From contig NC_063054.1 of the NCBI RefSeq assembly GCF_018812025.1, forward strand, positions 39,505,396 to 39,569,395: a stretch of DNA of 64,000 nt. Reading direction: 5' to 3'. Position numbers and translations under genes: made by a program. Below, piece after piece: positions 14,791 through 29,920 of the stretch. Numbering within the stretch: position 1 is the stretch's first letter; each line of letters opens with the position of its first letter. A model generated the notes under the pieces. That model ran no database searches. It had not been told where the DNA came from and saw nothing but the letters and a program-made list of their open reading frames with translations. The stretch comes from Megalobrama amblycephala (lineage: Eukaryota > Chordata > Actinopteri > Cypriniformes > Xenocyprididae).

Positions 14791-14878
14791 ATATTAATAC
14801 TCATGCATGTGGTTCAGGCAACGCAGTCAATCTTCACTACATGTATATTTACAACCAAACAAACTAAACACCAGATAT

Positions 14879-15394
14879 GGAGGACCAGGGGTGCCACTTA
14901 AAATTAAAAAGAAGAATCAATTAATTAATTTAATAATTCAAACATAAAAATGTAACTTTTTATATGGGCAAATTAATAGACATATTTAAAGTTGTTTATT
15001 TAATTCCTGTTTTTAAATGTAGTTTAATAAAACAATAAAACAGTAAATTTAAAAAATCTTTTTTGAATGAATAAATAAATAGACACATTTGAAATGGGAT
15101 ATTTAATTCACTTTTTAAGACGTAGATCAATAAAACAATAAAAAGTACATTAGCAAATCATTTTAAATGCGCATTTAAATCGCTTTTTAAAAAAGAATTT
15201 GGCAAATGCTTTTCTTTCTCTATTTACCAATTGCTTTTCTTTGTCAGTTTGCCAAACGCTTTTCTTTATCCATTTGTCAATCGAGTGGTAAAATGCCATT
15301 GGACAGTACACACGTGGGAGCAACCAATCAACTTTCGCCTCAATTTGAAGAGCCAGCCCTCTCTCACTTGTAACACTCACTGTCATTGGACAGT
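14879..15394 (+). repeat. Left TIR of the 13.6-kb transposon
   Basis: This TIR matches the reverse complement of 27,939-28,467 over its whole length, with only scattered substitutions and small indels. The outer ~300 bp is AT-rich. The inner part carries three tandem ~25-bp motifs ending GCTTTTCTTT (15,198-15,274) and ATTGG/CCAAT boxes near 15,299, 15,326 and 15,386. The first ATG of the integrase-like gene lies 77 bp beyond its inner edge, so this TIR probably supplies the promoter. Confidence 0.85.
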
Positions 15395-15988
15395 GAGAAA
15401 AACAATACGTTACGTCATTACAGCGGGAGTTTGAAGAAGAAGACGAGTTCGAGCAACGCAATCACGCAAAATGTCAGGGGAATCTGAATGTGTTTGGAGA
15501 GGTATTGTGGTGGATTTGTTAGCTTTAGCTGATTTTTGCGAAAGAAATTCTCCTCTCGATTATCATTTTATATGTAAAAGAGTTTTACAGTTGAGGGAAG
15601 ATGTGGCAAACGCAGCGGATAATTGTGGTTGTACAATAAATGGAAGGATTTGGGTTATGTTTGATGAGATCATTCAGCGACTCAGTCTCTCGGAATGCCG
15701 CAGCCCTCACGCTATGGTTGTACTTCCAAGCATTCTTGAACAACACCAGTCGTTAGGTGTACCAGCAGAAGAGACAGCAAGATGTATTGGTGTGTCGCTA
15801 AGGACAGTCCGACGAAAACTTGCACATAATGGTTTAAGGTATGTAAAAGAAAATGTTTTATTATGAATAGGCAGGTCAATCCTAAAATGTTTTTGGAAAG
15901 AATCAGCTACCATGCCTTGAGCGGCCTGCACACGTTTAACTTATAGCGGTCAATCGCATGACTGATTGATTCGTAGTATTATGTATAG

Positions 15989-16291
15989 CAGTGAATCTCA
16001 ACCTTTTTTGAGTAATGGACCCCCGTCATATTTAGAACCATCCTCAAGGACCCCAGAATAAAATTGGCTCATTGGTATCATTAATGTCTTTGTGACGAAC
16101 AAATGCAATCGAATGTAATTTACTACTACGTAAATTGACTTGTCCTATATTCATATCGTCAGTTATATTATACATCTATACATGTCAAATGTCAAAGTAT
16201 ACAAAAATCATATTCAGATATTTTATAAGGTCCCCCTGACGTTATGTCAAAGACCACTAGGGGTCCATGGCCCCTTGGTTGAGAAACACTG
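15989..16291. mobile_element. hAT-like MITE (303 bp)
   Basis: It begins CAGTGAATCTCAACC and ends GGTTGAGAAACACTG, an inverted pair with the CAGTG..CACTG termini of many hAT elements. The 8 bp on each side are atgtatag (15,981-15,988) and atgtacag (16,292-16,299), a 7/8 match and the length expected of a hAT target duplication. It lies in intron 1 of the integrase-like gene. Confidence 0.8.
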
Positions 16292-16628
16292 ATGTACAGT
16301 ATGTCGAAATATTAGGCTGAATATTAACTACAGTTAAGTTGGTTACGTGAAAGTAACACCCTAATGTGATTGCTTTAAAGGGCAGTGAAGTCGGAATTTG
16401 TTAAAATATTATAATATAATTTTATGTGAAACTTGTGTGTAATACCTTACTATAATTAAAAATGGTTTGTTTTTAGGAAACGTGACTTGTACACCTCCAT
16501 TACGAATGAGGAGTTGGATAGAATATTGGTGGAAATACACCACAGATACCCTAATGCTGGCTACAAGATGCTGGCACACTTAAGATCCAGGCAACTTCTT
16601 GTACAAAGTAGTAGTAACACATGCCAGC

Positions 16629-17092
16629 CCTGCTGAAAAAGACCACTATCATAGAAATTCTAATGGTTTCCATTTAAATACCATTATGAACCATTGGCTA
16701 GTGATGCACTGAAATGAAAATTCTGGGCCGGTACCGAAAATTCAGGATGCACTTTGAAGAAAAACTAAAAACACCAAAATTGGACAGAATATTTTTTATA
16801 ACAATACTAAAAAAAATATTCTTTGCAGCAGAATTTTCAGCCAAAATTCCGAAGCACACCACCCTACTGGCTTTTTCCATTAAAACCATTGCAAAATTCC
16901 TTTTTTTTTAATGTTGTGGGCATTATTTCAATAAGATTTAATGGTGTTTTATTGGTCCCCAACTGCCAGATAACATCCCATCTATAAAATCAATCACATA
17001 CCAGTAGGCACCATTATAGTTTCTGTTATAACCAATTAAACCATTAAAATTTCTATTGTTTTGGGCAAGGTTCTATTGTTTTTTTCAGCAGG
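16629..17092. mobile_element. Foldback-type MITE in intron 2
   Basis: Termini are inverted copies: CCTGCTGAAAAAGACC at the left, and the reverse complement of CCTGCTGAAAAAAACAATAG at the right. There is no coding capacity. It starts only about 20 bp after the exon 2 donor of the integrase-like gene. An A-run of about 18 nt follows the right end. Confidence 0.65.
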
Positions 17093-18935
17093 CAAAAAAA
17101 AAAAAAAAAATATCACAGTGGTGAGTAATGCTGTCAAATCACTAGCCGATTTGGTAAGTTATGTTTCATAAATTGTTCCCTCACTTTATTGGGAAGTTTA
17201 AATCAAACCAGTGCAAATTGAGCACATTTACTCAATGTGTGAGCCATGTTTTGTTGTACTTGTACATAGCCATCACTATGCAAGAAATAACCGTGCACTT
17301 GTTCGTTTGAGTCTGCTTTAAATTATTTTTACTTTAAACTTGCTTAAAAAGGCATTCAAAATGTGCAATTTTTCGTAAAAAATGCAAGATCTAACATATG
17401 AATATTATTGTTATAATCTGTTGCAGAACACAGGGTTTTAGCATCATTAAGACGAGTAGATCCTGAAGGAATGGAACTGCGCAGGTTACACCTTAAGACG
17501 TCCCGACGCCGACGTTACAGTGTACCAGCTCCCAACAGTGTCTGGCACATTGATGGGAACCATAAACTTATTCGGTAAGTATTAAGAATTTCTTTGGGAA
17601 AGTGAATGAATAATGTTACTGATGTCTAGGGTCACAGAATCTTTTCCCTTTACACATGTCCTTTTAAAAGAATCCTTTACACATCTACAAAATAAAGTTC
17701 CCATCAGTCAGGGGGGGGGGAATGTAATGGTTGCCCGGTTCATGATAAGAACAAGGGGAACAAACAGACATTCACACATTACAGGAAGAAGTGTGCACAA
17801 CCAAAGGTAGGCTTGTTACCTAGTAGCCACATGAATAGGATTTTCCTTTTGCTGAACTGGTTTGTTGAAGTTTGTTTTGTTTTTGTTTTGTTTTTTTATG
17901 CAAGAATTGAGCGGCTGTGGAGAGATGTATTTGACCAAGTAACAGACCTCTTCTACACCACCTTTCGTCGGTTGGAAAATGAAGGATGGCTTAATCCAGA
18001 CCAGGATGTGGACTTGTTTGCATTGCACTGGTCTTACATGCCACAAATTCAGAGGAATCTACAAGAATTTCAGAGTGCCTGGAATAGTCACAGTCTAAGA
18101 TCTGCAGGCAACAGAACTCCTCTGCAGCTTTGGTCAAATCATGAGAGGGATGACCCAAATCTGGTAATTTTGCAGTGATTTAGTTAATTACTTTCTTTTT
18201 TTATTCTTCCCCCATTTATTTCTTCACTGATAAATTGTTTGATACAATGGAAAAAAAGTAAAAATGAAAACTATTTTGTACTGATTTTTTTTTTCCAAAT
18301 TACTGTTTTAAATTAAGTTTTCTAAATGATTTATTCATATTGTAACTGTTTTAGATTGACATTGATGATGAAGTCAGGGAAGACCTTGAAGGGCAACAAG
18401 CAGAAGGTGTTCATGTTCCTGAGTTGGATCTACCTCGTGGCTTGACTGAAGAAGAGTTGGCAACACTACCAAACCCGGATGTACCTTTTTCAGATGCACT
18501 ATCTGTCTACATGGAAACCGTTCTTGCTATAAAACAAATGCTTGGTGAATCATAGTCTTTTCTTTTAAAGGTTTACATACTTTAGGCATAGATATCATAT
18601 ATGTGCATATCAGACAGGCCAGTTGTATTGTTGATCAGGAACCACCGACACAGTAACATCTGAAAAAACATTTAATTGAATTTATGCATTAACATACTGT
18701 AAAGAACATTTAAAAACCCTCATTAAAAGTTGGAATGAACAATGTCAGAATAGTCACTGTTAAAATTGGTTGCAAGATAAACATTTATGCATCAATTGTT
18801 TACTTTTTTTTCTAGCTACTTTTTTTGCAGTGGACAAATCCTGTAGTATGAACTATAGTGCATTGTCACTGAACAATAAAACTGCTGAACAACCGTAACA
18901 TGTTGTCAAAAAAAAGTTTTCAAACAACGATGTAT

Positions 18936-19222
18936 TTAAACCACCCAAATTAAATTTACCCCATAATTTGCTCACCCTCTTGCCATCCTAGGTGTACGTC
19001 TTCCTTTCCTCAGGCAAACACAATTGGAGTGCTAAATATAATTCTGGCAGTTCATAGCTTTCTAATGCCACTGAATGGTATTACAAAGCTATGAACTGCT
19101 AGGATTTTATTTAATGTTACTCCAATTGTGTTTGCCTGAGGAAAGGAAGATGTACACCTAGGATGGCAAGAGGGTGAGCAAATTACGGGGTAAATTTCAT
19201 TTATGGTTTAACAATTCCTTTA
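18936..19222. mobile_element. Short foldback MITE
   Basis: Two ~115-bp arms (18,940-19,070 and 19,080-19,212) are near-perfect inverted copies centred on a short loop. They contain the sequence cctcaggcaaacacaattgg and its complement. It lies between the 3' ends of the two convergent genes of the 13.6-kb element. Confidence 0.7.
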
Positions 19223-19238
19223 ATGCAAATGTGTTGAA

Positions 19239-22200
19239 CTACGCTGTGCCAAATGTTGGTACCCACAGTATACCATTGCTCATGTGGGACTCATAATTGT
19301 GATGGATAGGCAATTTTAACACAATGTTGCAAGTGTTTGCCTCTGGGAATATTTTCTCTGGTGCATCATGGGGAAATTCGATTTTGGGCTGCTGCAGAAA
19401 GCCATGAGGTGGAATGGCTGAAGACCCTGAAGTAAACTCCAGCACATTCTCCAACGTCAATGGTGAACATTCTCCATCTGTAACACAGGTAGATATTCAG
19501 TCTAACAACTGCACTGTTTTTCAGCCTGTTTGGAATGGCACAGTGTATCAGTTACTTTTGAGTAAACAGCTTGTAAATAAATTGTGTAATCATTCTCCAT
19601 GTAACTTGTTAAAAATGTGATTCATTCAGGAGAAACCATGCTACCATGTTATGTTTTGAGAAATTCAATGGTTCAGTGTTGGCAGAGCACAAATGCAAAA
19701 TTTGCAATAGTGTCTAAAATCTAATTTAGTTACATGCAATGACATCTCTACCTGCTCTCTTCTGTTGGAACAGAGAAGAGGTAAGCAAGTGAAATATCAA
19801 TATTTGTGTGAAATGTCATTTATATAAACCCTGTTGGACAAACCACTTTATAAAAGCAATATTACACCTTTAATCGTATGCAAATAAATTGTGAATACAG
19901 CAGCTGTGTATAGACTTTATAGGACAAAATATGTATAAAAAAAAAAGATTTGTAAATACCTTCAACATCAATGATCCAGTCTCTCCAGAAGCATAAGGTC
20001 CTGGTCTCTAGTTCTCTCTAGTAGGTAACTTGATCTGACAGGTTTACTTCAAAAAGTGATGTCAGGTCTGGGGATCTCAGTGGTTTTTTGTCTTCAACAA
20101 ATATGGTGTGAAACAGATCTGTGTGTGTCTGCATTTCTTGAAGAAGTCCAAGGGTGTTAAAACCATCAACAAACCTGTAAAAAACATGTAGAATCTATAA
20201 CGAACTAGGTCTAAAAACAATATCAAAGTTTTTGATATTACATACTGTTGCAGTGCAGCACTGCATCTCCCATCAGCATAATACTCGACAGCTGACTGAA
20301 CCAGGATGTCCCGCTGCTTAAGAGTGCTAATGGACCTAAAGGCTCCAATAATGGACAGGCAATCTTCTGCCATTTCAATGGCAGCTTTGGCTTCTGGAAC
20401 AGTTTCAGCTTCTTTTATCTGAAAAAGATACCAGACAAAACAGACAAACAGTCCTGTTGCAGCTACAATACAAAAACACTGCATTAATAGGGATACAGGG
20501 GTACTCTTTATGCACAACGTCCAAATTTAGCTCACTGCACTTTAAGGAAAATACTTACTTTGCAAAGCATTTCTTTGAAGGTCTCATCATCTACTTCATC
20601 CAAGGTTGCAGGAGGGGTAGGTTTACCACAAACCTGCAGAAAGAGCCTTTCTGAAAAGAAGTGCGGCCCCATTCCCCCATGAGTTATACAAACTGATATC
20701 ATTTGTGATATCTGCCTGTAAAGACCTTTATGTAAAGCTGTAAAGAAAATTTCCAAAATATTTTAATGAACTACAATGACAATGTTATGAAACCATTTTA
20801 AATAAGACAAAGCATAATATATGTCTTGTGGTATTGAATTAAAAAACAGACCCTATAAACCTTTAGTTCAAATGCTTACCTTCAGTGTCAAGCCGCAACC
20901 TCTTACTATTTTCAGGGCCCTCAAATATGCTAGATTGTTGGACAGCCTTAAGGAGCAATCTGAGGTACTCTCTAGTTGGACCACCACCGTCCACAGCCCC
21001 CTCTGCTGCTTTTGTATCATCAACAAAAATGACATCCAGTCTTGCTCCGAGGTTAAATCGTCGCCGACTAAAAGCCTGAACAGTGCTTCTCAGTATGTTG
21101 TGGGTATTGCCTTTGTAATCCCTTACAGCATTGATCTGGTTACTAGTGGGACTATCGTCATCTATCTTGGCTGAAAGGCGACTCAGTATTGTTTGGAGGT
21201 TGGTCCTGGAAAAGAATATGATTATGAATGCGAATGCAAATGACAAAAGAGGACATAGTATATCAAATGGGATACAGGTATAGAGGTAACTATGGGTTTA
21301 CATTGGTACTATAACATTTTAATTCATACTTCTGGACTGTCTTTTCCTGCTCTGATTGAGGGGAGAACGATGTCAGATGTTCATTAGAGGTGCTAGGTTG
21401 ATCCAATGGGCTGACAGTCCCAGAATTATAATCATCTTTATCGTGGTTGTCATTGCCATTAGGTGTAGGAATGGACTGCATAAATTGAACAAATTATATA
21501 AAACAGTAAATGACAGGCTAAGAAAATTTTGAAAAAATAACATTTTGTAAAAATACCTCTGCATCTTGGGAAGAAATCCACTGGACAAAAAGTGTGGTTG
21601 GTCCTGTGATATTTCTTTCAGAAATGGTTCCACATAGGTCATTTCTAAGTGGTGGTGATAAGGCTTCCTGAATATGGAACCATTCTGTAGCATCCTCTAC
21701 CTCTCCAACGAAGTCAAACAGTGCCTAAACATTTTGATTATTTCACATTTAAAGACAGAAAAATTTTGCATGCCAAAAAAATTAAAAGTAATATAAACCT
21801 TACCAACCTGAATTGAATCACTTAAAACAAATTTCCTAGTCCTCATCAAGCCACTTGGATACTTTACTTTTAATGGCACACCATGTGAAATTTCATGTAA
21901 ACTCGCCATTCGCGCTCTTCTCTCATCTATAGCCTAAAATTAAAGGATTAGTTCACTTTTAAATAAACTTTTCCTGATAATTTACTCACCCCCATGTCAT
22001 CCAAGATGTCCATGTCTTTCTTTCTTCAGTCGAAAAGAAATGAAAGTTTTTGATGAAAACATTCCAGGAATTTTCTCCTTATAGTGGACTTGAATGGGCA
22101 CCAAACGATTTAAGGTCAAAATTACTTTCACTGCAGCTTCAAATTGTTCTACATGATCCCAGATGACAAATAAGGGTCTTATCTAGTGAAACCATCGCTC

Positions 22201-25200
22201 ATTTTCTGAAAAAAATTGAAAATTATATAATTTTTAACCTTAAATGCTCATCTTGAACTAGCTCTCTTCTTCTTCTCCTCTATTTGAATTCCAGCAGTGT
22301 AGACGCTGCTAAGTGTATTACTGCCCTCCACAGGTCAAAGTTTGAACTAATTGTTATATACTATTGAACTAGCATATTGCATATAAAATTAGTTCAAACT
22401 TTGACCTGTGGAGGGCAGTAATACGCTTAGCTGCATCTACACTGCTGGAATTCAAATAGAGAAGAAGAAGAGAGCTAGTTCAAGATGAGCATTTAAGGTT
22501 AAAACTTATATAATTTTCAATTTTTTTTTAGAAAATGAGCAATGGTTTCACTAGATAAGACCCTTATTTCTCATCTGGGATCGTGTTGAACAATTTGAAG
22601 CTGCAGTGAAACTAATTTTGACCTTCAATCGTTTGGTGCCCATTCAAGTCCATTATAAGGAGAAAAATCCTGGAATGTTTTCATCAAAAACTTTAATTTC
22701 TTTTCAACTGAAGAAAGAAAGACATGGACATCTTGGATGACATGGGGGTGAGTAAATTATCAGGAAAAGTTTATTTAAAAGTGAACTATTCCTTTAATGT
22801 ATGCAAGTTTCAAAATCAAAACTGCAATAGTAAAAAAAAAAACAAAAAACAAAAACAAATATAATATAGATAACATTATAATATTTATAGATACAAATAT
22901 AAAATTCAAAGAACAAATATCAATTTGCAGTCACTACTGGATCTTCACTATCTTGTCTACATTTTTATAATTTTATAGTCTCTCCTAATTTCTGTGGTCT
23001 CGATGTGCAGTGCCTTGTAGCACTGTTACAACACATAATAAAATCAATTACCAGGAATTTTAATCACTCCCTTTCCTTCAATGCCTATGATCTTCTAATA
23101 AATATCCAAAAACATATGCTGCATAACTTAATGAAACAGTTCTTCTGCAACGAACTTATAATTGTCAATGCAACACTATATTATTTATAATTTTAAATAA
23201 AATTATTTAATTTTATTCTCAGACTAACCTATAAACTATGAATTAAAGCCCTAGTTCTATTTTCTCTATGATGATGCTTTTGTAGTATTCTTCAACTTGT
23301 AATTTGCTATAGGTTATCTGCTATATACAGGTGCATCTCAATAAATTAGAATGTCATGGAAAAGTTCATTTATTTCAGTAATTCAAATTGTGGAACTTGT
23401 GTATTAAACAAATTCAATGCAGACAGACTGAAGTACTTTAAGTCTTTGGTTCTTTTAATTGTGATGATTTTGGCTCACATTAAACAAAAACCCACCAAGT
23501 CACTATCTCGACAAATTAGAATACCATAAGACCAATAAAAAAACATTTTTAGTGAATGTTGGCCTTCTGGGAAGTATGTTCTATGTACTCGGTTGGGGCT
23601 CCTTTTGCTTTAATTTTCTGCCTCAATTCGGCGTGGCATGGAGGCGATCACCCTGTGGCACTGCTGAGGTGGGATGGAAGCCCAGGTTGCTTTGATAGCG
23701 GCCTTCAGGTCATCTGCATAGTTGGGTCTGGTGTCTCTCATCTTCCTCTTGACGATTCCCCATAGATTCTCTATGGGGTTCTGGTCAGGCGAGTTTGCTG
23801 GCCAATTAAGCACACCAAAACCATGGTCATTTAACCAACTTTTGGTACTTTTAACAGTGTGGGCAGGTGCCAAATCCTGCTGGAAAATGAAATCAGCATC
23901 TTTAAAAAGCTGGTCAGCAGAAGTGCTATAAAATGTCTTGGTAAACGGGTGCAGTGACTTAGTAAACACAGTGGTCCAAAGTCCTCTTTTCAGATGAGAG
24001 CAAGTTTTGTATTTTATTTGGAAACCAAGGTCCTAGAGTTTGGAGGAAGAGTGGAGAAACTTATAGCCCATGTAGCTTGAAGTCCAGTGTGAAGTTTCCA
24101 CAGTCAGTGATGATTTGGGCTGCCATGTCATCTGCTGGTGTTGCAGTCAACGCACCCATCTACCAGGAACTTTTAGAGCACTTCATGCTTCCTTCTGCTG
24201 ACAAGTTTTATGGAGATGCTGATTTCATTTTCCAGCAGGATTTGGCACCTGCCCACACTATTAAAAGTACCAAAAGTTGATTAAATGACCATGGTTTTGG
24301 TGTGCTTAATTGGCCAGCAAACTCGCCTGACCAGAACCCCATAGAGAATCTATGGGGAATCGTCAAGAGGAAGATGAGAGACACCAGACCCAACTATGCG
24401 GATGACCTGAAGGCCGCTATCAAAGCAACCTGGGCTTCCATCCCACCTCAGCAGTGCCACAGGGTGATCGCCTCCATGCCGTGCTGCATTGAGGCAGTAA
24501 TTAAAGCAAAAGGAGCCCCTACCAAGTACATATACAGAAAATGAACATACTTCCCAGAAGGCCAACATTCACTAAACATGTTTTTTTAATTGGTCTTATG
24601 GTATTCTAATTTGTCGAGATAGTGAATTGGTGGGTTTTTGTTTAATGTGAGCCAAAATCATCAATTAAAAGAACCAAAAAGACTTAAAGTACTTCAGTCT
24701 GTCTGCATTGAATTTATTTAATACACAAGTTCCACAATTTGAGTTGAATTACTGAAATAAATGAACTTTTCCATGACATTCTAATTTATTGAGATGCACC
24801 TGTAAGCATCTGCTATATAAATACACATAAGCCATTACAGATAAATGTAATGTATTAAAAAGGCTGCAACATCCTGATTTCATTTAATTAGACCTACCTT
24901 TCTGCGTCTATTCTCAGATTCTTCACTATTCATCTTCTGAAGTTCCTGAAACAACAAATTGCAAAATCATACATTGCATTGTAATGCAAACAAAAAGATT
25001 ATGAATGTCATCAGAGGATGTCTGTTTTAAAGTTTACCATACATACTTTGGCTTGATCTGCAATTAAAGACTGATAATATTCCTCATCCTGCTCCTCACG
25101 AATCCTCCGCCATTGACTTAAGGATTCCTGTCAATATTTTGAGATAGGAAATTTAGAAAAATAGTAATACCATAATTAAGAGCACTCTTAAGAGCATCAA

Positions 25201-27871
25201 AACTTGTGCCAAATAAATGTGGGTGATCCACAAGACTACTCTTTTCTTCAGTTCGATGAACATTATATAAAAAAAAATAGCAAAAATGAAAAATAATGTA
25301 GGCTCTTCTTTCAAATAAGAAGTGTTTTGAAATGCAAATATTGTGAACCTACAAACTGAAATTATGGCAGAAGAAAATGTTTGATGGTAAGACAAGCTCT
25401 TAGCAATGCAAGTGAAGTTTACCGTGTCTTTATTTCATCTGATAAATCGATGAACACTTGGTCAGTATTCTCCTCAGTGGGTGACTCAATGATGAGTGAA
25501 TCACTGTCTGAAGTATGTGCATTTAGGTGTTCGTTCTCTAATGCTGGTGGCAGGTGACTGGAACATTCAGTCCTTGGCCTTCAAAAACATGGAAATAAAG
25601 ATTGTTTTCCTAATAAGAAACTGAATATTAAAACTAGATTATGACCAGTCAGTGTTTTCCATACCTGCAACTCTCAATGTGAACCTTAAGTTCATTGAAA
25701 TTGAACTGTTTTTCACAGGTAAGACACCTCTCCATTGGCCCAAGCAAGGGAGATTCGCAGACAACCTTAAAAATTTAAAGAGCAATCTCAAAAGTTTAGA
25801 TAACTGTAAAAAAATAAAAATTCTATAAATAAATCTCAAAAATGGCTGGAGAATATGGCCCAAGACACCACAAAATCTGACAAAATTGCTTGGATGATAT
25901 AACTATATCTGCTGTATTTTGAAAAATTATACTTTGTAGTAAATCTCACGAACAAAACTTTTAGCCCATACTAAGATGATCCAACAGTGTGTGTTCTGTT
26001 TATCTTCCGCATGTGTGCATATGTACACAGAGATGATAGCATGTGAAATGATAATAACCACATGGCTGTTCTCTGTGAATACAGTAAGAAACGATGGTAA
26101 CTTTAACCACATTTAACAGTATATTAGCAACATGCTAACGAAACATTTAGAAAGACAATTTACAAATATCACTAAAAATATCATGTTATCATGGATCATA
26201 AACAGTTATTATCCTCCATCTGCCAGTTTTGCTGTTGTCCTTGCTTGATGGCTTCACAATACCTGCAGAACTGTGCAGGTCCACAGCGTTAATACTGCCT
26301 TCCCTAGAAGATGGGCTGATGCAAATTTTAGGGGCGTACATAAAAATGATCCCGACTGTTACAAAACAGATTTACATAAGGAGGAAACAATGGTGTTTGA
26401 GGCTCATGGTATGTGATTACCATCTACAGAAATCTTATTATTCAACTATGCCAAGGTAAATACAATTTTCACTTCTAGGGCACCTTTAATTTAATTTAAT
26501 TTAATTTAAATTTGTCTATTTGGTTTATTTTATCTATTTAATGTACATTTACTTAATCTATGATGCTCTGTTCAGTTTCAATGTGTTCAAAGGCTTTCAC
26601 GTATTTCTAGTGAATGTCTAGTTTTGCCTTGTAATTACAGTTCTGTATTCTTTAGTAATAATAATAATTTAAAAAAAAAATATATATATATATATACATA
26701 TATAAAAACTTGTTTATTTTGAGACGATGGTAGAGTGCTTATAGTGTGATGTGTCATTTGGGACACACCTGCTCTGTCACTTTTGTTTCTGTCAATGCTG
26801 CTGTAATGAACTGAAGGAACGAACGAGGGAGCAGCTTCGGATGGGAGGGTGTCACGTGATAACATATTTGTGACGTCATTCTACTCTATAAATTGTCACA
26901 TACTATAGCTGCATTCACGCCACCTCGTATTTACCGTAATCTTGAAATGACAACACGTGACGTTATATTTGGAGCTGTTCACGTCCTTTTGGTCCTTGGA
27001 CTGGGAATTATGCGTTTCCATGGCACCACTATCAACGCCTAATAAATCAATCTACAGCGGTCAGGTGGTACAGCGGCCACGTGGTACATGTGGGAGCTTT
27101 CAGAAAACTCCCAGCTTACAAGCTGTAACTACGATCTCTACGAGGACGTGAACGCTTTTTACTAGCTAGAATCTCGTAACTACAGGAATTACGAGACCGC
27201 GTGAACGCACCTAAAATTTTAATAAAACCAAATCCCCAATAAAGCCGTTTTTGATTTAGATTTTCTGTTGTCAGGCATGAAACAATATAAACAGTCACTA
27301 AACGCGACCCATTAAACAGCAGTTACTTTCACTGACATGCAAAAATCCTAATATATTTGCGACCTGATCAAAAAAAATCACCATGTACCTACGTTAAAGA
27401 GCAGCTATATGCAGTGATTTTGGATATATTGACACAGAACAAATGACGAATCAGCTGCGGTACGGTCAATGTAACACTTTCTGCACAGACACCGAGAGAG
27501 ACGATCTGAGCTGGGAAAGAAAAACTTAAAAACCTTGGTCGCCATATTGGGAATATTTTCCCTGGATGTAACGTTAAGCCAAGGCTTATTCAAAAAGAGT
27601 AAAATCCAGAAATGCCTTGTTCTTAATGTGTCATATTATGTGTCATATGTCAAATTATATGTCATAGTATTGGCATAACGTCATATGTGAACAAACATAT
27701 TCGCATACAGACAAACAACAACTTTTAAAGAGATAAGCAACTTTTCTTACCATCCACTGAGTTATGCCCTTGCGTTCCAGACGGAGTGGCTTGTCGGTCT
27801 GGGACATTTGAACCACCAACGTTATCCACTTCATTGGTGAGTCGTCTTAAAATGTTTGCAATGTCAGCCAT
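19239..27871 (-). CDS. UBZ zinc-finger / HECT-domain E3 ubiquitin ligase gene, one in-frame stop
   Basis: Hand-read exons (minus): 27,751-27,871 (ATG at 27,869), 25,665-25,765, 25,423-25,578, 25,047-25,116, 24,898-24,945, 21,808-21,933, 21,557-21,724, 21,330-21,475, 20,880-21,205, 20,559-20,737, 20,246-20,418, 19,960-20,174 and 19,239-19,477. All junction phases agree except exon 1 to 2. Exon 2 encodes a CCHC finger (CLTCEKQFNFNELKVHIESC) of UBZ/Rad18 type, a likely ubiquitin binder. Exon 4-5 is a charged helix. Exons 9-13 are a HECT domain: FVDDTKAAEGAVDGGGPTRE, ..SSIFEGP, and near the end EANTCNIVLKLPIHHNYE, with the catalytic Cys at 19,329-19,331. A TAG at 20,018-20,020 interrupts exon 12, yet homologous coding continues after it (RELETRTLCFWRDW). 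The architecture recalls the multicopy fish 'G2E3-like' proteins. It starts 68 bp inside the right TIR, so it is cargo or a partner gene of the transposon. Confidence 0.8.
21947..22798. mobile_element. 852-bp near-perfect foldback MITE
   Basis: The two halves are inverted copies: the left starts ggattagttcacttttaaataaac and the right ends with its near complement, with the centre near 22,370. A partial copy lies at 35,562-36,018. It has no coding capacity. It lies in intron 5 of the HECT gene, its edge 13 bp from the exon 6 acceptor at 21,934. Confidence 0.8.
23328..24802. mobile_element. Tc1/mariner foldback made of two transposase 3' halves
   Basis: TA flanks both ends (23,326-23,327; 24,803-24,804), and the termini CAGGTGCATCTCAATAAATT are inverted copies. 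The right half encodes, on the plus strand, a Tc1-type catalytic region: MIWAAMSSAGV near 24,110, DFIFQQDLAPAHT near 24,230 and NWPANSPDQNPIENLWG near 24,305-24,355. The left half encodes the same C-terminal part on the minus strand (23,610-23,960). The 5' half with the DNA-binding domain is absent, so it could only move in trans. It sits in intron 5 of the HECT gene. Confidence 0.85.
26050..26485 (+). mobile_element. TTAA MITE family A, 5'-truncated copy
   Basis: Matches the right half of the complete copy at 8,165-9,138, starting at the gtgaatacagtaagaaacg segment. It ends in tagGGCACCT followed by TTAA (26,486-26,489). The left end is missing. It lies in the long first intron of the HECT gene. 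Confidence 0.75.
26670..26706. repeat. A-run and (TA)n microsatellite
   Basis: A run of A followed by about ten TA dinucleotides in intron 1 of the HECT gene. Length variation between individuals would be expected. Confidence 0.8.
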
Positions 27872-27938
27872 GGTACTTGCATGATGTTAAAATGGCGCCA
27901 CAAAACCAAATTAAAGCGGGATGAAGCTCTGATCTCTA

Positions 27939-28467
27939 ACTGTCCAATGACAGTGAGTGTTACAAGTGAGAGAGGGTTGGCTCTTCAAATTGAGGCGAAA
28001 GTTGATTGGTTGCTCCCACGTGTGTACTGTCCAATGGCATTTTACCACTCGATTGACAAATGGATAAAGAAAAGCATTTGGCAAACCGACAAAGAAAAGC
28101 AATTGGTAAATAGAGAAAGAAAAGCATTTGCCAAATTCTTTTTAAAAAAGCGATTTAAATGCGCATTTAAAATGATTTACTAATGAACTTTTTATTGTTT
28201 TATTGATCTACATTTTAAAAAGTGAATTAAATATCCCATTTCAAATGTGTCTATTTATTTATTCATTCAAAAAAGATTTTTTAAATTTTACTGTTTTATT
28301 GTTTTATTAAACTACATTTAAAAACAGGAATTAAATAAACAACTTTAAATATGTCTATTAATTTGCCCATATAAAAAGTGAATCATTTATATACATTTTT
28401 ATGTTTGAATTATTAAATTAATTAATTGATTCTTCTTTTTATTTTTAAGTGGCACCCCTGGTCCTCC
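27939..28467 (-). repeat. Right TIR of the 13.6-kb transposon
   Basis: Inverted partner of 14,879-15,394. The three AAAGAAAAGC repeats (28,061-28,137) mirror those of the left TIR, and CCAAT boxes near 27,944 and 28,030 are kept. The ATG of the HECT gene lies 68 bp from its inner edge. The outer end, CCTCC, abuts ATAT. Confidence 0.85.
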
Positions 28468-28484
28468 ATATTGTGCAATGCAAT

Positions 28485-29222
28485 GCCATCATTGCAAATC
28501 ACAATGCCGTCGCAGAGTCTGCCAAGCAATTCTCCACTCTGTATGAGAAAAGATGGATGGAATCCATTTCAAGTGCTGCACTGGGTACACTTCATCAAGC
28601 CCAAATGGAATAAACCACATGTTTTGCCCTTTACACAGGATGTGTCCCTGCTGCACAAGTTTCTTGCTACTGAGCATGCTAAGTGCATGAAGGACCTTGA
28701 GGAAGAACCTAACATCAAAAGCTTTGGGAATCTTGCACAAGTGACTGACGCAGGTGGTACTATTTAACAGAAGAAGGCAAGGGGAAGTTTCAAAAATGGA
28801 ACTCCAGGCTTTCACATCCAGAAATCGTACAGAGTTGAATCCTGACATTATGATGGGCCTTACTGAGTTTGAGAGGAAGGTTACAAAGTACTTTGACAGA
28901 GTTGAGATTCGAGGTAAAAGGTCACGAATGGTGCCCGTGCTTCTCACACCTGACATGATCACTGCAATGGATCTCCTCATTAAAAACAGGAATGAGTGTC
29001 AAGTCCACACAGAGAATGTGTACTTGTTTGCACGCCCATGTGTGCTTTCCCATTACAGAGGCTCTGACTGCTTCTGCAAGTATTCAAAACGATGTGGTGC
29101 AAAAAAACCAGAGTCACTCACCTCAACAAGATTGAGGAAACAAGTTGCCACTTTGTCAACAGTACTAAACTTAAAAGAAAATGAAATGGATCAATTTGCT
29201 ACCTTTCTAGGACATGATACAG
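28485..29222 (+). pseudogene. Tyrosine-recombinase-like gene fragment
   Basis: Plus-strand coding relic read in three frames. 28,490-28,605 gives ..KQFSTLYEKRWMESISSAAL; 28,606-28,745 gives WNKPHVLPFTQDVSLLHKFL; 28,760-29,222 is open and gives LFNRRRQGEVSKM, then VPVLLTP, LRKQVATLSTVLNL and FLGHD. This pattern (an Arg in RRR.GE, then LRK.., then LGHD) recalls the multicopy tyrosine-recombinase-fold proteins of fish, related to the Crypton/phage integrase fold; it is recalled, not searched. The left part is cut by the 13.6-kb transposon. The right end stops after FLGHD, before the catalytic Tyr, at the junction with the minus-strand Tnp2-like gene. Confidence 0.55.
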
Positions 29223-29920
29223 TTTCTAGTGCCTGGTAATCAACTTCCTCACCTGGTGAAAGGACAGTCCATTCATTTTCATATTTCACACAGTATGAAT
29301 AATAAGGACAACAAAAGGATTCAGGTATTAACAGCTTGCCACACAATAACCAGTCTGTGTCCATGTAAAGAATGTACTTAATCTGAAAAAACAATGGAAC
29401 AACTTCTGCATGGAGGTGACCCACAGTAAACACATCTTTAACACAATATTTGACATCATTAATCTCTACTTCTGTAACTCGTTGAAGCTGTTTGCCTTCA
29501 AAATTGACATGGCTGTACTTCTTGTTCACACTTATTGAATGCTGGAGAGCTGAAGGTAAAGACTGAAAGGGTGTGTTCACACAACATCCAGCAACTTTCT
29601 CATATTCCCCCAACATATTAACAGAAGACAATTCCCAACATTGTTTATGCTGATGTCGGTTACTTAAAGTGGATGAAATGTTACTGAAATTTTTACAAGC
29701 GCTAGCGACCTGTTTGAAATATTGATGTTTGCCTTCAAACCTCAAACACCATAAAGAACGCAAAGGCCCATAGCATAACATCAAACGAGAGTAATGGATT
29801 AAATAATGACATTTTTGGAGTAAGAACATCACCAAACTCTTCAACTGTACATGACAAAATCTCAGAAACTAAGAGATCAAGAGTGGGAAGCCATTCTTTT
29901 TTTACAACTGGTGCCATTAT

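Follow-up and report, generated by a model that had tools for sequence, protein, structure and literature searches.

Probable IS3EU-type DNA transposons with a HECT ubiquitin ligase as second gene in Megalobrama amblycephala

We report that several families of IS3EU-superfamily DNA transposons in the fish Megalobrama amblycephala probably carry a gene for a HECT E3 ubiquitin ligase convergent with their DDE transposase gene, the two genes starting beside the two ends of the element. Based on sequence comparison we put the probability of this reading, which includes the probable identity of the copy in the window (the whole 64,000-nt stretch of DNA analysed) as a decayed autonomous copy of such a cut-and-paste element, at roughly 0.88. 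Specifically, 14 transposase exons in the M. amblycephala genome (13 pairs, and a fourteenth that merging had hidden) are accompanied by a convergent HECT gene at a distance of 0.5-3.7 kb, where about 0.02 (0.023) would be expected, and in two families, A and B, both genes lie between matching ends flanked by a target-site duplication (TSD). This bears out the expectation that HECT homologues would lie near such TIRs.

The element in the window

Positions 14876-28470 constitute a single element of 13,595 bp with TIRs of about 0.52 kb at both ends (Table 1). The initial annotation had placed the ends nearly correctly, at 14879 and 28467, but the exact ends, TATGGAGG at 14876 and CCTCCATA at 28470, lie 3 bp farther out on each side. 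Three pairs of inverted-repeat arms (15045-15398/27935-28288, 97%; 14944-15064/28270-28390, 92%; 14875-14954/28392-28471, 99%) together with the exon matches confirm the proposed arrangement of two TIRs flanking two convergent gene systems, with the transposase and HECT genes starting about 70 bp inside opposite TIRs. In the TIR tree both window TIRs fall in one clade (support 0.987) and have eight changes in common relative to the consensus of 27 other TIRs; they are therefore the TIRs of one element. Comparison of the two flanks revealed no 6-bp TSD around this copy, and its decay is also apparent from a gap in the transposase, a stop codon in the HECT gene and palindromes in a HECT intron.

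That the transposase has a DDE integrase fold, as had been proposed, was upheld by the match of one exon to rva_4 (PF24764, E 2.5e-28, Pfam); some 44 residues are lacking ahead of the second catalytic Asp, whose motif is unreadable. A Carassius relative (P0080), 87-92% identical in three of four exon matches, has a D, D, E triad with 34 residues from D2 to E, as read from its sequence. The identity of a Carassius HECT relative (P0001) to the window gene is similar, 85-97% in 9 of 11 exon matches, and other cypriniforms have HECT homologues at 85-90% identity.

The HECT domain (PF00632) was found in the window gene and its relatives, and all 19 proteins aligned share the catalytic C732. Of the zinc finger plus HECT ligase in the initial annotation, the HECT assignment stands (E 3.4e-7), but the C2HC finger scores poorly (E 4.9e-5; 23.4 bits, under the Pfam cut-off of 27) and a putative FAF1-like UBX region, in the ligase besides finger and HECT, had been overlooked. 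The UBX Pfam score lies above the curated cut-off in P0022 (25.0 versus 21) and below it in P0001, P0003 and P0007; FAF1 chains were matched by profile over the helix and UBX region with E 1.7e-6, the window's own UBX-like stretch alone giving only E 0.015. For P0001, AlphaFold gives a model of low overall confidence (pLDDT 58.6), with residues 251-330 at about 78-89. Moreover, exon 1 of the window HECT gene matches the N-terminus of the Carassius carassius protein P0003, and in P0006, a HECT protein predicted for grass carp, the first 25 residues are encoded within the window-family TIR: all 25 are identical to 28040-27966, and 24 of them to the left TIR.

Table 1. Features of the window element and complete two-gene units elsewhere in the genome
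Feature	Position	Strand	Remarks
Left flank ACCAGA	14870..14875		differs from right flank TTGTGC, 28471-28476
Left TIR (TATGGAGGACC...)	14876..15398	+	523 bp
IS3EU-type transposase gene	15471..18552	+	ATG 15471; about six exons, limits approximate
Transposase exon, helix-turn-helix	15471-15839	+	exon match
Transposase exons	16475-16606; 17691-17807; 18355-18552	+	exon matches
Transposase exon, first catalytic Asp, WHIDGNHK	17420-17575	+	exon match
Transposase exon, catalytic Glu, RIERLW	17903-18175	+	exon match
C2HC-finger/UBX-like/HECT ubiquitin ligase gene	19242..27871	-	ATG 27871; exon limits approximate
HECT gene last exon, C-lobe, catalytic Cys, PEANTCNIVLKLP	19484-19242	-	PF00632 E 3.4e-7
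In-frame TAG ahead of C-lobe exon (VTY*RELETRTL)	20018..20020	-	
HECT gene exons	21475-21329; 21204-20881; 20738-20556; 20418-20245; 20173-19961	-	exon matches
HECT gene exons, UBX-like	21933-21808; 21724-21557	-	exon matches
Palindromic insertion in HECT intron	21939..22798		arms 95%
Palindromic Tc1/mariner-type remnant, HECT intron	23326..24804		two inverted DDE_3 pieces
HECT gene exons	25580-25434; 25127-25047; 24948-24898	-	exon matches
HECT gene exon, C2HC finger	25765-25664	-	exon match
HECT gene exon 1, MADIANILRRL	27871-27751	-	exon match
Right TIR (...GGTCCTCCATA)	27935..28470	-	536 bp
Family A copy	C1:21801175-21810206		TSD TAAAAG; TATGGGAGGCCG ends
Family A copy	C5:3745143-3754174		TSD GAATTG; TATGGGAGGCCG ends
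Family A copy	C18, start 7615445		TSD TTTTTA; TATGGGAGGCCG ends
Family B unit with both genes	C14:37062278-37070735		TSD CTTTTG, exact (1/1 tested); ends match 11/12

Pairing of transposase and HECT genes in the genome

The 14 pairs fall in nine sequence families with fixed order and orientation, and the transposases of these families are 39-75% identical in the compared exons. Distances among the transposases and among the HECT genes agree in part (Mantel r 0.42 over nine families; 139 of 20000 permutations reached this value), with trees that are incompletely congruent, M, N and J differing. The candidate pair C14:22048292/22059538 was dropped after an orientation check, being divergent.

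Family A includes four complete units (not counting four other places where its TIRs match in part), all of which hold both genes; the query exons are identical among the copies, as is the HECT-side TIR where compared, and a transposase exon matches rva_4 (PF24764) with E 2.7e-79, the match spanning positions 12-194 of the 194-position profile. Perfect 6-bp TSDs, each different, abut the TIR tips of three of the four copies, the flanks of which differ; a left flank common to two of the four shows that one duplication or rearrangement took place. By these sequence features family A looks recently active. In the search for ends, which covered A, B, E (C1:20628k), G, H and I, both ends with a TSD enclosing the two genes turned up for just two of the nine families, A and B; no ends were found at E, H and I, and at G, which starts at the same left tip as the family B unit, only the left end was found. 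The window unit has both ends and no duplication.

The left TIR of the window has matches at 91-100% in at least 43 places of the genome (40 over most of the TIR, 3 partial), a minimum figure, as scoring covered 40 of the 230 first-look candidates. Neither transposase nor HECT was present in any of 15 other TIR-bounded units of the window family, drawn from 32 of the 41 other places of this TIR; 11 of these units have an exact 6-bp TSD, two have one with a single mismatch and two have none, as judged by eye. Non-autonomous copies lacking HECT are abundant. The idea that copies of the TIRs enclose the HECT gene holds for family A (4/4 units); none of the other window-family units does so (0/15), but the absence of the transposase as well makes these units uninformative on HECT specifically. 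For 58 of the 75 transposase hits, no HECT in any orientation was detected within 12 kb, and the pairing may therefore be a sub-lineage trait; among three unpaired loci examined, no HECT was seen at C90 and C17, and at C12 there is a convergent HECT gene of very divergent sequence (E 2.2e-4).

Weighing the alternatives

Chance capture, in which one IS3EU copy took up, or inserted around, a host HECT gene and the pairing is meaningless, could draw on the abundance of HECT in the genome (135 exon-level PF00632 matches) and on the 15 window-family units devoid of it, but is extremely unlikely in view of the 14 convergent pairs in nine families, their fixed order and orientation, and the ends and TSDs of A and B; the identities of 39-75% make a recent common ancestor of the other pairs improbable. 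Two adjacent host genes, one derived from IS3EU and the other of HECT origin, anciently co-domesticated and spread by segmental duplication with the TIRs being incidental, would fit the left flank common to two family A copies and the homologues at 85-90% in other cypriniforms. We regard this as very unlikely: the flanks of three family A copies differ, each of these copies has its own perfect 6-bp TSD at the TIR tips, and the query exons are identical on C1, C5 and C18.

The HECT gene could also be hitchhiking cargo that moves with the element and brings it no benefit, which would agree with the 58 of 75 transposase hits without detected HECT and with the many non-autonomous copies lacking the gene. 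Against this stand the invariant catalytic Cys (19/19), the retained gene order and the low ratio of HECT pN (0.18-0.25) to pS (0.63-0.89) in six between-family comparisons, although most of the comparisons suffer from saturation at silent sites and the transposase gives a similar ratio. The HECT exons appear to be under purifying selection, a stop codon within the N-lobe exon of family I notwithstanding; we consider mere cargo quite unlikely, and the HECT gene very probably a selected part of the element.

Possible role and relation to known systems

As a selected part of the element, the ligase would be produced at the same time as the transposase and raise the transposition or survival of the element; the substrate that it ubiquitinates would be either the complex of transposase and product DNA or a host factor that acts in repair or silencing. 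Such a host factor is a plausible target at somewhat below even odds, and the element may manipulate such host proteins; the transposase or post-transfer complex is a more doubtful one. The UBX domain of FAF1 hands over to p97/VCP, and in one clade the presence of a UBX-like region suggests that the ligase could pass its substrate to this unfoldase. A further-reaching and rather unlikely reading is that the ligase is an ancient and regular second gene throughout a large IS3EU branch in vertebrates, overlooked through its annotation as host 'G2E3-like' genes, and a built-in disassembly machine: it would ubiquitinate transposase that stays on the product DNA, and the UBX region would summon p97 so that the transposase is stripped off and the host repairs the ends. 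For phage Mu this disassembly is done by ClpX. A transposon with its own ligase would offer a direct handle on the way in which ubiquitin comes into transposition or into the conflict between transposon and host, and family A, apparently recently active, makes the question testable.

Like G2E3, the ligase has a HECT domain, and in databases the G2E3 name is given to many relatives: the window HECT (P0005) is recorded as 'G2/M phase-specific E3 ubiquitin-protein ligase-like', and 33 of 77 HECT relatives found bear this name by our count. G2E3 carries PHD-type fingers. In P0001, P0003, P0007 and P0022, Pfam (E up to 0.1) detected only HECT, zf-C2HC_2 and UBX and no PHD finger, with a C2HC finger and UBX-like region present instead; orthology to G2E3 was therefore rejected, and the suggested link to the numerous G2E3-like fish genes survives as a matter of naming. 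Such fish genes would be recast as probable transposon genes, which would affect claims of gene-family expansion in fish genomes. With FAF1, a UBX-domain p97 adaptor, the ligase has the profile match over the helix and UBX region in common; FAF1 is not known to have a HECT domain.

With the IS3EU superfamily the present elements have in common TA..TA termini (TATGGAGG..CCTCCATA, TATGGGAGGCCG and TATGGAAAGCCG; pattern TATGG..CCATA), usually a 6-bp TSD (in window-family units and families A and B, not in the window copy itself) and an IS3/IS481-like DDE core (rva_4 matches on window and family A exons); no HHCC-type finger was matched in the transposases scanned. The main text of the superfamily paper mentions neither HECT nor ubiquitin, whereas the second gene of the present elements codes for a HECT E3, and the view that no such family had been described agrees with our search of the open-access literature (Repbase and Dfam lie beyond it), which yielded no transposon with a HECT ligase. 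Fungal TET+ IS3EU elements (PMC12730594) have an alpha-kinase gene oriented opposite to the transposase with TET/JBP between, TAYGG..CCRTA ends and a 6-bp TSD. The placement of the second gene, the similar ends and the TSD length are as here, but that gene is a HECT ligase here and an alpha-kinase there, HECT and ubiquitin being absent from that text. In Ginger1 (PMC2836005), OTU or Ulp1 protease domains that remove modifiers are fused to the transposase, the TSD is 4 bp (CCGG/CCGT), the ends are TGTNR and its authors proposed that the ubiquitin pathway has a role in transposition. The 6-bp TSDs and TA ends do not fit Ginger1; both systems tie an integrase-type transposase to the ubiquitin/SUMO system, but here the enzyme is encoded by a separate gene and would add ubiquitin. 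DNA transposons with de-ubiquitinating or SUMO proteases are known already, and what appears to be new is a transposon with a ubiquitin ligase of its own, kept across highly divergent families.

Genome-wide pairing of transposase and HECT genes

Pairing of an IS3EU-type transposase gene with a HECT ubiquitin ligase gene is general in the Megalobrama amblycephala genome and not confined to the window copy. Transposase exon queries from the window element and from family A, another transposase-HECT family, matched 74 and 71 places, respectively (one of the latter was new and was added), and two HECT exon queries matched 30 and 48 places; after merging, 75 transposase hits and 57 HECT loci remained. 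A convergent transposase was present within 5 kb of 13 HECT loci, while other orientations numbered one divergent and no same-strand within 5 kb, and three divergent and one same-strand within 12 kb. A 14th convergent pair (transposase C1:21798535, HECT exon C1:21796117) had been counted as divergent because two neighbouring elements had been merged. The proximity of HECT homologues to this type of transposase is borne out by 14 convergent pairs vs approximately 0.023 expected by chance within 12 kb.

For 58 of the 75 transposase hits, the exon queries gave no HECT hit, in whatever orientation, up to 12 kb away. Of the three such loci fetched, those on C90 and C17 had no HECT, and at C12 the convergent position is taken by a HECT C-lobe of high divergence (E 2.2e-4 with hmmsearch; E 0.02 with Pfam, where 232-304 align). 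Since the queries missed this HECT, 14 pairs is a lower bound. Similar genes may lie beside other "unpaired" transposases, and many IS3EU elements may truly be without a HECT gene. By eye, an IS3EU transposase copy in L053 (C17:40152000-40159200) adjoins a T-cell-receptor-like V segment open frame.

Mobility of the gene pair and copies of the window TIR

Families A and B prove that the transposase and HECT genes move together as one unit (see table for target-site duplications, TSDs). In all four family A copies the HECT-side end is identical to the terminal inverted repeat (TIR) query (382/382), the opposite end matches it at 98%, and the query exons of both genes are 100% identical. The two C5 copies have the same left flank and different right flanks (L041/L043; C5:3744700 and C5:3806300), and therefore reflect a duplication or rearrangement that includes the element. 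Partial family A TIR matches occur at four further places; a partial TIR at C14:41234605 is approximately 3.7 kb from a HECT hit (C14:41238621) that has no nearby transposase hit. Full reading of family A was limited to the C1 copy, where the transposase has two long open exons (rva_4, E 2.7e-79), the recognised exons of the putatively spliced HECT gene are in open frames, and the HECT start exon, MADSKAAAEAVNILRNLL, is also just inside the TIR. Family B copies G and H carry both genes; G has the same left tip as the C14 copy (96.6% over 7,990 bp) and H matches it in pieces (86-96%), and their other ends were looked for but not found.

The left window TIR matches at least 43 genome places, two being the window's own, a lower bound since 40 of 230 candidates were scored. 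In 20 fetched loci, spanning 32 of the 41 other places, two TIRs face each other in 15, with 6-bp duplications (read by eye) that are exact in 11, have one mismatch in two and are absent in two. None of the 15 matched transposase or HECT exons in blastn, and we therefore consider them non-autonomous; the remaining five show a single TIR in approximately 10 kb and no exon match. Since these 15 units of the window TIR have no transposase either (0/15, either gene), they are uninformative on the HECT gene as such; the copies of families A and B enclose both genes. By eye, long open frames resembling reverse transcriptase lie within one non-autonomous unit of the window-TIR family (L024, C5:9647121-9657100), probably as a nested retroelement.

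Features of the window element and related loci (window coordinates unless a contig or stretch is named)
Feature	Position	Strand	Length	TSD	Remarks
Left TIR	14876-15398
Transposase gene	ATG at 15471				left gene; integrase core
HECT gene	ATG at 27871 to 19242	minus			right gene
Palindrome	21939-22798				between two HECT exons, same intron as next
Palindrome, near-perfect	23326-24804				between two HECT exons
Right TIR	27935-28470
Family A, C1 copy	C1:21801175-21810206		9,032 bp	TAAAAG, both sides	ends TATGGGAGGCCG
Family A, first C5 copy	C5:3745143-3754174			GAATTG, both sides
Family A, second C5 copy	C5, starts at 3806742
Family A, C18 copy	C18			TTTTTA, both sides
Family B	C14:37062278-37070735		8,458 bp	CTTTTG	ends TATGGAAAGCCG/TATGGCAAGCCG; both genes present
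Divergent HECT C-lobe	L052:4019-4405	minus			convergent to C12 transposase

The window copy and the shared history of the two genes

The TIRs of the window element (exact tips TATGGAGG and CCTCCATA) enclose 12.5 kb, and the two genes do begin beside opposite TIRs and converge, as initially annotated, with ATGs 73 bp (transposase) and 64 bp (HECT) inside. The transposase has rva_4 (PF24764, E 2.5e-28) in its later exons and a weak helix-turn-helix region (E 0.0061) in its first. For the other gene, annotated as zinc finger plus HECT ligase, the HECT domain stands, the C2HC finger (zf-C2HC_2, E 4.9e-5) is under its cut-off, and a putative FAF1-like UBX region is also encoded. Its start exon is backed by Carassius carassius P0003 (MADIANILRKL vs MADIANILRRL in the window), and P0005, a 416-residue M. 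amblycephala protein, is 100% identical to the window HECT.

This copy is dead: relative to the read-through Carassius transposase P0080, approximately 44 residues are missing ahead of the second catalytic Asp, whose motif is unreadable, and a TAG (20020-20018) precedes the HECT C-lobe exon. Although the 6-bp flanks differ (ACCAGA vs TTGTGC), the two TIRs are a pair: placed in a tree among 27 others they form one clade (support 0.987), and 8 of the right TIR's 11 changes also occur in the left. The first palindrome has arms of 284 bp (95%) and further inverted repeats nested inside, and the second is built from two Tc1/mariner-type DDE_3 transposase pieces in inverted orientation. In the right flank, a 164-aa open frame (28745-29239, plus strand) ends in ...FLGHDTVSSAW and has no Pfam match.

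Among nine families (B, G and H as one), identity between transposases is correlated with that between HECT C-lobes (Mantel r 0.42, a value reached in 139 of 20,000 permutations). A and E are paired, and W, B, I and K close, in both trees; M, N and J are placed differently between them. In six between-family comparisons HECT pN is 0.18-0.25 vs a mostly saturated pS of 0.63-0.89; transposase pN is 0.18-0.37 vs pS of 0.77 and above. In family B, the B-G comparison gives a ratio of 0.09 for HECT and 0.64 for the transposase, and the B-H comparison 0.27 and 0.53; frame damage, at least in G, contributes to the transposase values. All 19 HECT proteins aligned, of 77 found, have the catalytic Cys. 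Carassius has relatives of both window genes at similar identity: for transposase P0080, three of the four exon matches are at 87-92% and the fourth, which is damaged, at 77%; for HECT P0001, nine of 11 stretches are at 85-97% and the two that run into introns at 66-67%. Moreover, the first 25 residues of the predicted grass carp HECT protein P0006 are encoded inside the window-family TIR, so that, as far as a predicted protein can show, HECT gene and TIR are linked in a second species as well.

Possible role and known systems

Our data show a two-gene mobile unit with its second gene kept. The transposon-made E3 ligase would act on a protein that limits transposition, possibly a host factor for silencing or repair, or else the transposase on the product DNA. 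The finger has a UBZ-like pattern. In family A the window-type query finds no UBX match in the HECT protein, and by eye its exon L029:5725-6111 contains a UIM-like motif, DEDEELYTAIIASIEDQ; families may thus differ in the part that binds ubiquitin. The finger, the UBX-like region (one clade) and the UIM-like motif suggest binding of ubiquitin and p97.

A HECT-carrying transposon may be novel: in a search limited to the open-access literature, no listed title or abstract start describes one, and the word HECT is absent, by term search, from a zebrafish transposon survey (PMC9341512) and from the main texts of PMC10045372, PMC12730594 and PMC2836005. IS3EU elements have TA..TA ends and usually a 6-bp TSD (PMC10045372). 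In fungi, IS3EU elements with TET/JBP also have a gene for an alpha-kinase, oriented against that of the transposase (PMC12730594). In Ginger1, OTU or Ulp1 proteases are fused to the transposase, and the authors of that study proposed a ubiquitin pathway role in transposition (PMC2836005).
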